NCBI RefSeq assembly: GCF_020892095.1
Contig: NZ_AP024845.1
Location: 2,294,001-2,358,000 of the forward strand
From: Claveliimonas bilis
GTDB taxonomy: Bacteria; Bacillota; Clostridia; Lachnospirales; Lachnospiraceae
Length of the DNA: 64,000 nt
Reading direction: 5' to 3'
Shown here: in pieces, positions 6,111 through 8,267 of the stretch
Numbering within the stretch: position 1 is the stretch's first letter
How the letters are laid out: every line of letters starts with the position of its first letter
The notes under the pieces: generated by a model
The model's database searches: none
Told to the model about the DNA's origin: nothing
Seen by the model: only the letters and a program-made list of their open reading frames with translations
Position numbers and translations under genes: made by a program

Positions 6111-6620
6111 ATGAAATTTAAAGAAATTACTGTGGAAGATATGACATTCAATCCCTTTACAAGGACAAATAAAGACTGGATCCTGATTGCGGCAGGGGAT
6201 GAAGAGGAAAATAATCTGATGACGGCATCATGGGGGTTGTTTGGAACACTCTGGAGAAAAAGTATTGTGGAAATTTTTATCCGCCCTCAGCGCTATACCA
6301 AAAAATTTGCAGACGAGAATGATATGCTCACTATATCTTTCCTGCCGGACGGTTACCGGGAAGCATTGAAGATCTGTGGTACAAAGTCGGGAAAAGATAT
6401 GAATAAATGGGAAGCTGCGGGTCTTCATCCCTATTATGTGGATGGGACAGTAGGAGTAGAGGAGGCAGAACTCATTATTGTGGGAAAGAAACAGTATACG
6501 CAGTGGGTGGATCCGACACTGTTTATTGAAAAAGAGAATGACATAAAATGTTATCCGGAGAAGGACTACCATGAGATGTATATGCTGGAAATTGTAAGGA
6601 TTCTGCAAAAGGAAGAGTAG
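6111..6620 (+). CDS. Flavin reductase-like (FMN-binding split-barrel) protein
   Basis: Protein of 169 residues with the pattern of small flavin reductase-domain proteins: an N-terminal segment on obtaining cofactor contacts (ASWG near residues 42-45), FIRPQRYTKKF in the middle, then LTISFLP. These proteins bind FMN and may reduce it with NAD(P)H. The gene follows the SDR gene after 51 bp with a GGAGGAAG ribosome site, so it may share its transcript. Its stop codon TAG forms the first bases of the inverted-repeat element at 6619-6895. The link to sugar-acid metabolism is positional only. Confidence 0.75.
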   Translation: MKFKEITVEDMTFNPFTRTNKDWILIAAGDEEENNLMTASWGLFGTLWRKSIVEIFIRPQRYTKKFADENDMLTISFLPDGYREALKICGTKSGKDMNKWEAAGLHPYYVDGTVGVEEAELIIVGKKQYTQWVDPTLFIEKENDIKCYPEKDYHEMYMLEIVRILQKEE

Positions 6621-6895
6621 CGTCGGTGTACAAGGGGCAACACGGTCGGTGAAGGGTAGATTTTAGTCCCTTCTTCGTTACTTTCACTCCGCGTACGTCT
6701 CTGTACGCGTCGTTCAAGTGCCTAAAAGGGGCTAAAATCTGCTCCTTCCCGACTCACAGACTCCAGCCGCAGGAATTTCGGGGTTTTTCAAGGCAGACGA
6801 TTGAGGCGTACTGGACGTACGCCGAATGAGGATAACAAAGAAAATCCCCGAAATTACGCGGCTTGGAGCGTATTGTCCCCTTGTACACCGACGCT
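6619..6895. repeat. Composite two-armed inverted-repeat element (MITE-like or structured RNA)
   Basis: Terminal inverted repeats AGCGTCGGTGTACAAGGGG at 6619-6637 and its complement ending at 6895 enclose two large hairpins. Arm A (6645-6753) pairs GTCGG...GATTTTAG with CTAAAATC...CCGAC and contains a GCGTAC/GTACGC mini-hairpin (6691-6708). Arm B (6761-6868) pairs CTCCAGCCGC..AATTTCGGGG with CCCCGAAATT..GCGGCTTGGAG and contains a GGCGTAC/GTACGCC mini-hairpin (6805-6823). The apical part of arm B, read on the other strand, resembles that of arm A (CTTYGTTA...CGTACG). No ORF of note lies within it. It fills the gap between the flavin reductase-like gene and the MATE gene. Confidence 0.8.
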
Positions 6896-6914
6896 AACAT
6901 TTGATTATGACAAA

Positions 6915-8267
6915 CTAGGAGACCGGTTTGGTGGCGCAGCGGCGCCGGTTCAACCTCCGGTATACAAAGATTCCGGTCAGGTCTGCTAAAGCCCATCCGA
7001 TCGGAACGGACAGCCATATGCCGGTAACCCCGATCCACGGCACCATAGAGAGTGTGTAGGCCAGCAGTACACGGGTTCCAAGGGAAATGACTGTCAGAAC
7101 GACAGACATGCCCGGGCGGGCGATAGCGCGGTACAGCCCGTATAATAAAAACAAAATACCAATCCCAAAATAGCAGGAGCCTTCAATGCGAAGATAGTGG
7201 ACTCCGGCTTCGATGATCTGCGTCTCATCGGCAGATACAAAGATCTGCATAAGAGGACGGGCAAAGATACAGACGAGAAGACTGACAGCCAGACAGAAGA
7301 AAAAGGAAACAAGGAATGCGCTTCTGATTCCCTGTCTGATGCGGTCTTCTTTTTTTGCTCCGAAATTTTGTGCAATAAAAGTGGAGAAGGCATTTCCGAA
7401 ATCCTGTACCGGCATATAGGCGAAGGAATCGATTTTTACAGCAGCGGCAAATGCAGCCATAATAACCGGGCCAAAGCTGTTGACAAGTCCCTGCACCATG
7501 AGGATACCGAAATTCATGACTGACTGCTGGATACAGGTGAGGAAAGAAAAACCGGTGATTTCCCGGAAAATTTTTTTATCCCACTTGAAATTCTCTTTTC
7601 GGGGGCGAAGAGAGGGAAAATGAAAAAGAGTATACAGCGCAAGTCCGATTCCGGAGACATACTGAGACAGGATAGTCGCAAAGGCAGCGCCCGCTACGCC
7701 CCAATGGAAAGAGAGGACAAAAAGGAGATCCAGTACAATATTCATGACGGCAGAAACAGCCAGAAAGATCAGTGGAATCCTGGAGTTTCCAACAGAGCGG
7801 AGGAGGCAGGCAAAATAATTATAGAAAAAAGTGGCAGGAATCCCTGCAAAAATGACAAGCAGATAGTCCCGCATCAGATCAGTGACAGAAGCGGGGACGC
7901 GAAGGAACCAGATAATGCTGTTGATGCCAAGAAAAACAGCCAGGTTGAGAACAACAGTAACGGCTCCGATAAAAAGGAACGATTGAAAAATAGCTCCCTT
8001 CATACGAACTTCATCCTGTTTTCCATAGCTGATGGAAAAGGAAGCGCCGCTGCCCATACACAGGCCCAGGATGATGGAAGTAAGAAATGTCATCAGAGTG
8101 TAAGAAGAACCTACCGCAGCCAGAGCATCGGCCCCAAGGAAGCGTCCGACGATAATTGTGTCAGCAATATTGTAAAATTGCTGGAGCAGATTTCCGGCAA
8201 TCATGGGAAGTGCGAAAACCAGCAGACTTTTTGTAATATTTCCGGTTAAGAGTTTACTTTCCTGCAT
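6915..8267 (-). CDS. MATE family efflux transporter
   Basis: Membrane protein of 450 residues with about 12 hydrophobic segments arranged as two homologous halves, typical of MATE transporters (drug or metabolite/cation antiport). Family features are PMIAGNLLQQFYNIADTIIVG near residues 21-41 and the matching second-half segment near 240-260. The C-terminus is short, charged and Arg-rich. The start is supported by AGGAGG ten bases upstream. It converges on the inverted-repeat element, whose end is only 20 bp from the MATE stop, and diverges from ccdA-tlpA. The substrate is unknown. Confidence 0.9.
   Translation of the reverse strand: MQESKLLTGNITKSLLVFALPMIAGNLLQQFYNIADTIIVGRFLGADALAAVGSSYTLMTFLTSIILGLCMGSGASFSISYGKQDEVRMKGAIFQSFLFIGAVTVVLNLAVFLGINSIIWFLRVPASVTDLMRDYLLVIFAGIPATFFYNYFACLLRSVGNSRIPLIFLAVSAVMNIVLDLLFVLSFHWGVAGAAFATILSQYVSGIGLALYTLFHFPSLRPRKENFKWDKKIFREITGFSFLTCIQQSVMNFGILMVQGLVNSFGPVIMAAFAAAVKIDSFAYMPVQDFGNAFSTFIAQNFGAKKEDRIRQGIRSAFLVSFFFCLAVSLLVCIFARPLMQIFVSADETQIIEAGVHYLRIEGSCYFGIGILFLLYGLYRAIARPGMSVVLTVISLGTRVLLAYTLSMVPWIGVTGIWLSVPIGWALADLTGIFVYRRLNRRRCATKPVS

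Follow-up and report, generated by a model that had tools for sequence, protein, structure and literature searches.

The window analysed here is a 64,000-nucleotide stretch of the Claveliimonas bilis genome (G000). A palindromic element occupies positions 6618-6896 and sits between convergent open reading frames (ORFs), forming a TA...TA unit of 279 bp that includes both boundary TAs. The upstream ORF (6111-6620) encodes 169 aa and its stop codon is the TAG at 6618-6620, the TA of which is the element boundary. On the other side lies a minus-strand MATE gene, whose end at 6915 is 18 bp from the element. An earlier note on this DNA had described a 277-bp element at 6619-6895, directly after a stop codon and 20 bp from the converging MATE gene. 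The element is real and the MATE gene does converge on it from the minus strand; the bounds and the distance have been corrected, and the element starts inside the stop codon rather than behind it. Removal of the element with one TA would give GAAGAG-TA-ACATTTG, which contains a TAA stop; this TAA, the stop codon of the upstream gene, was probably the site of the insertion, which then supplied TAG in its place.

The unit opens with a left terminal inverted repeat (TIR) that begins with the boundary TA (6618-6637, plus strand; TAGCGTCGGTGTACAAGGGG) and closes with a right TIR that ends in the other TA (6877-6896, minus strand). These outer repeats are 20 bp long and were found to be 100% complementary by the repeat finder. 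The TIRs enclose arm A (6645-6753, plus strand), a long imperfect stem identified by the fold, the repeat finder and covariation. Its stem strands lie at 6645-6672 and 6726-6753, and its conserved tip, GTTACTTTCACTCCGCGTACGTCTCTGTACGCGTCGTTCAAGTGCCT, at 6677-6723. Arm B (6761-6868, minus strand) is related to arm A in inverted orientation but has another sequence in its stem (strands 6761-6789 and 6840-6868), and its conserved tip lies at 6790-6836 on the minus strand (AAGGCAGACGATTGAGGCGTACTGGACGTACGCCGAATGAGGATAAC on the plus strand). The mean majority-base frequency in 26 copies is 0.90 for the tip of arm A and 0.91 for that of arm B, compared with 0.64-0.71 for the stems. The tips are inversely related, with 79% complementarity between 6671-6699 and 6814-6842. 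The outer repeats of about 20 bp, the two long arms and the resemblance of the arm B tip, read on the other strand, to that of arm A had all been noted earlier, and each was recovered by the repeat finder. Identity between the two halves is 36% in the stems, 75% in the tips and 94% in the TIRs. This combination of unlike stems, related tips and near-identical TIRs marks the unit as an inverted dimer, each half comprising a TIR and an arm.

The RNA fold of positions 6600-6910 has an energy of -154.8 kcal/mol, against -90.5 +/- 5.2 kcal/mol for dinucleotide shuffles (z -12.4; 0 of 100), and folding with DNA parameters gives a z of -12.95 (0 of 200 shuffles). The shape is that of an outer stem with two long arms (T-shaped). 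Covariation was assessed in an alignment (A4) of 26 copies with identities below 93%. Standard pairs fill 95.0% of the pair cells, and two-sided compensated changes occur at 68 of 99 pairs. The covariation score is 0.482, while shuffled alignments reach 0.156 and slid structures no more than 0.098, a positive outcome of the covariation check proposed in the earlier note. Part of the covariation in the stems could be due not to selection but to templated correction of palindromes. A single long hairpin, in which the arm A tip pairs with the arm B tip, is the energy minimum for the G145 consensus; this candidate was rejected, as covariation favours the two-arm fold.

The C. bilis genome (3.04 Mb, one contig) holds two full copies with 99% identity, the second at genome position 429864, together with a shortened 205-bp copy at 1432731 and approximately 14 short palindromes or single ends with the same terminal repeat. 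Full-length relatives of 73-78% identity are present in other Lachnospiraceae genera. A scan for the conserved tip, with one genome per bacterial or archaeal species, returned at least 118 stretches; the 80 matches listed are mainly from Lachnospiraceae/Clostridia and gut MAGs. Searches of the element's own and related genomes, as suggested in the earlier note, therefore gave a multi-copy family with strong covariation, not the single copy without covariation that was named there as counter-evidence. DNA similarity search with the element gave no match in phage or plasmid records, and the tip pattern was not found in IMG/VR viral contigs. No ORF is conserved across the family copies. The open-access literature searched held no description of such a family of small, gene-less mobile elements in gut Lachnospiraceae, which is apparently undescribed. 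The earlier statement that no established family fits is borne out in the searches made, with no match in Rfam or the literature.

Among 72 full-length copies at distinct places, TA is present at the start in all 72 and at the end in 70, and the length is 275-284 bp in 71 and 250 bp in one. Their flanks are unrelated; the only trend in them is weak and symmetrical, palindromic in form, with A preferred at -4 and T at +4. Two element copies abut at L077:5170-5215 and at L140:6755-6800, with one TA in common (...GATGCTAGCATC...). The search for empty sites, also suggested in the earlier note, yielded a clean one. In G000 the site reads GGCAAAGGA-TA-AATATATAAAA with a single, undisturbed TA, whereas in G152, a sister strain of the same species, GGCAAAGGA-TA is followed by 68 bp ending in TA and then by AATATATAAAA. 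The single TA in one strain against the TA-flanked copy in the other indicates that insertion duplicated the TA. As this polymorphic copy is a 70-bp arm-less form, the role of the arms is inferred, and arm-less forms may move. The second full copy (429864) offers no empty site, its flank being absent from the sister strain.

Recent spread of the full-length unit is indicated by G145, which carries 14 full copies at distinct sites. Six of these are letter-identical, and the remainder have 1-4 substitutions and no compensated Watson-Crick change. With ORFs called mechanically, 40 of 55 copies were found to lie outside ORFs, whereas random positions in the same loci lie inside them in 138 of 174 cases (79%). 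The genes neighbouring the 39 scored intergenic copies are in tandem for 27, divergent for eight and convergent for four. The TA boundaries, the empty site and the identical copies at different sites point to a non-autonomous, MITE-like mobile element moved in trans. The element is thus very probably a non-autonomous DNA transposable element, an inverted dimer inserted at TA by a transposase encoded elsewhere.

Several copies appear in shortened form. The 205-bp copy at G000:1432731 matches a single TIR at the same site in G152. In a 250-bp copy, precisely the arm B tip is missing, and CGATTGAGG direct repeats, recognised by reading the sequence, flank the deletion, which measures 25 bp (L159/L401). 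The junctions of short palindromes within one genome mostly differ, which suggests separate deletions. The same junction occurs at different sites in two mini-palindrome pairs (L383/L385 and L389/L390), and so the short forms might also move. In [Clostridium] citroniae, single ends TACCATCAGTGTACAAGG lie close upstream of start codons (L188, L189, L190 and L200), and the one in L190 apparently supplies an AAGGAGG ribosome-binding sequence. These half-sites upstream of genes at first resembled regulatory sites. One of them keeps arm sequence, which makes deletion remnants the simpler reading, albeit not one proven for all of them.

An autonomous parent was not found by TIR pattern in eight genomes, nor with up to three mismatches in G145, nor among TA-bounded inverted pairs screened in approximately 1.1 Mb of G000. 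The TIR search of the C. bilis genome and the loci scanned likewise gave no autonomous transposon with the same ends. Across all fetched loci, no pair of TIRs with a spacing of 0.4-4.5 kb encloses a transposase gene; one pair that was checked holds only ordinary genes, and the pairs in G145 are neighbouring copies with ordinary genes between them. The DDE_Tnp_1 and IS loci that were fetched and inspected have ends different from the TIR of the element. One such IS, present in six copies in G000 (L271, L278, L284, L289, L294 and L298), encodes a DDE_Tnp_1 transposase of 445-459 aa and lies within palindromic GGGACGTA... repeats. It is possible, judging from these surroundings, that it targets REP-like palindromes. 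A RAYT-like gene in G149 (L306) has flanking repeats similar to the same palindromes. A Y1 (RAYT-like) gene at G000:2195683-2196012 (L305) and G152:2463506 (L312) is flanked by a 30-bp inverted repeat, AAGTGGTGTGTATTTTTGCAAAATACCCTG, which is unrelated to the element.

A structured non-coding RNA, dispersed as a gene and selected for its RNA fold, would also be expected to covary strongly in a T-shaped fold and to have conserved tips. An RNA constraint should clearly prefer G-U to A-C mispairs. Leaving out one invariant T-G pair, the stems contain 88 G-T/T-G and 69 A-C/C-A mispairs (p 0.15), and the outer stem 16 and 18, respectively. The similar frequency of both types bears no mark of a strand-specific RNA, and a constraint on the DNA accounts better for the fold. 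No Rfam family was matched up to E=1, the one sub-threshold hit lying outside the element, and promoter-like sites are no more frequent than in shuffles. With TA-bounded insertions and an empty site added to this, an RNA gene is improbable; of the structured RNA proposed in the earlier note, the fold is upheld by covariation and the RNA level is not. That note had also offered a strong bidirectional terminator, here fixed between convergent genes. The position of the element in the window agrees with this, but the convergent setting is shared by so few of the scored intergenic copies (4 of 39), and the copies are so dispersed and TA-bounded, that such a role is extremely improbable. A search for a GC-rich stem followed by a T tract gave no terminator-like hit.

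IS630-type transposases are the usual TA-duplicating kind, and the TA target duplication and inverted repeats are consistent with an IS630/Tc1-mariner-derived MITE of the RUP or Correia type, its parent absent or diverged in the examined genomes. This would be a special case of the main MITE reading. The IS630-type domain DDE_3 (PF13358) had no match in seven of the nine carrier genomes (G000, G152, G145, G146, G149, G150 and G151), although G145 holds identical, recent copies; it was matched in the other two, G147 and G148, as transposase matches alone. The TIRs of the examined IS loci do not match either. RUP, the repeat unit of pneumococcus, is a small, gene-less intergenic repeat with inverted-repeat ends, a terminal TA, target duplication and proposed movement in trans (PMC2229807, PMC3049150). 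It measures 107 bp and its TIR 9 bp, no functional motif has been reported inside it, and its presumed parent, IS630-Spn1, is known and was proposed to move it at TA (PMC2229807). The element resembles RUP in being gene-less and mostly intergenic, with inverted-repeat ends, TA duplication and proposed movement in trans; it differs in its length of 275-280 bp, its TIR of 20-27 bp, its two conserved hairpin arms and the lack of IS630 in the main carrier genomes. An IS630 derivation is possible, if somewhat unlikely, and the element was not classed with the IS630-derived MITEs, since a search of the main carriers for the transposase expected of them found none. The RAYT option of the earlier note, in which a Y1 HUH transposase moves REP palindromes, draws on the paired hairpins in opposite orientation and the one Y1-type gene (272 aa) of the C. 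bilis genome. That gene is flanked by an unrelated 30-bp repeat, however, and no Y1 transposase is present in G145, G150 or G151, all carriers of the family. REPs are 20-40 bp long with an unpaired GTAG or CGTC tag (PMC3733652). No such tagged palindrome is present in the element, the TIR being paired throughout and CGTC not conserved in the family, and this origin is highly improbable.

The reading as a non-autonomous mobile element is preferred. It works like a MITE and displays the testable features of one: it is small, codes for nothing, ends in inverted repeats, duplicates the TA and occurs in dispersed copies, some of them recent. The MITE option of the earlier note is upheld by the multiple copies, the inverted-repeat ends, the TA duplication at the empty site and the absence of an ORF, and the family appears to be new, with an unusual architecture. 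Each half consists of a TIR and, next to it, a hairpin arm whose tip is conserved. A transposase encoded elsewhere would act on the ends and insert the unit at a TA, which it duplicates. Following insertion, the interior of the long, unstable palindromes is lost, and short TIR-TIR palindromes or single TIRs remain; the arm-tip deletion between direct repeats and the single TIR at the site of a longer copy in the other strain show such losses directly. The conservation of the tips and the compensated stem changes without strand bias argue for a function of the arms as DNA. There is close to an even chance, judged from these sequence patterns, that the arms are recognition or assembly sites, either because the transposase or a host protein binds the tips, or because the arms act as folded hairpins or cruciforms. 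A more speculative and unlikely extension is a new transposition system of gut Lachnospiraceae in which the enzyme would read folded DNA. The arms with their conserved tips would then act as hairpins, in a cruciform or single strand, the stems would be kept only as shape, and cutting would occur at the TA-flanked TIRs. Integron attC sites and parvovirus terminal hairpins are DNA hairpins recognised by shape, and a T-shaped outer stem with two arms is found among them. These serve as an analogy only, with no relation in sequence or setting claimed.

Among further known repeats, the Correia elements (NEMIS) of Neisseria have a TIR of approximately 24 bp, a terminal TA, target duplication and stem-loop transcripts (PMC2229807). 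Compared by description, they are shorter and belong to another phylum, and the accounts of them do not include two conserved arms arranged as an inverted dimer. The BOX elements of Streptococcus pneumoniae are modular, structured and MITE-like, with a TIR and variable length (PMC3049150). By description they differ in their boxA/B/C modules and in their proposed mobiliser, ISSpn2. REP/BIME sequences with RAYT share with the element the paired palindromes in intergenic DNA; their GTAG type is linked to a Y1 transposase, and the element has neither such a tag nor such a link. Among the described bacterial MITEs that were consulted (PMC2229807, PMC3049150), a pair of conserved hairpin arms is unusual.

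With this family, a small mobile element that is widespread and recently active becomes known from Lachnospiraceae, a major gut family. RNA-discovery pipelines could take the element for a non-coding RNA on account of its strong covariation, and counting G-T against A-C mispairs is an easy means of distinguishing structure at the DNA level from structure at the RNA level. The conserved hairpin tips, together with the mobilising enzyme, make structure-guided transposition testable.

A separate observation concerns the neighbouring MATE gene. The sister strain carries a second copy of the MATE gene region (G152:2347938-2348700), which is 90% identical to positions 6938-7700 of the window and lies approximately 2 kb from the first.
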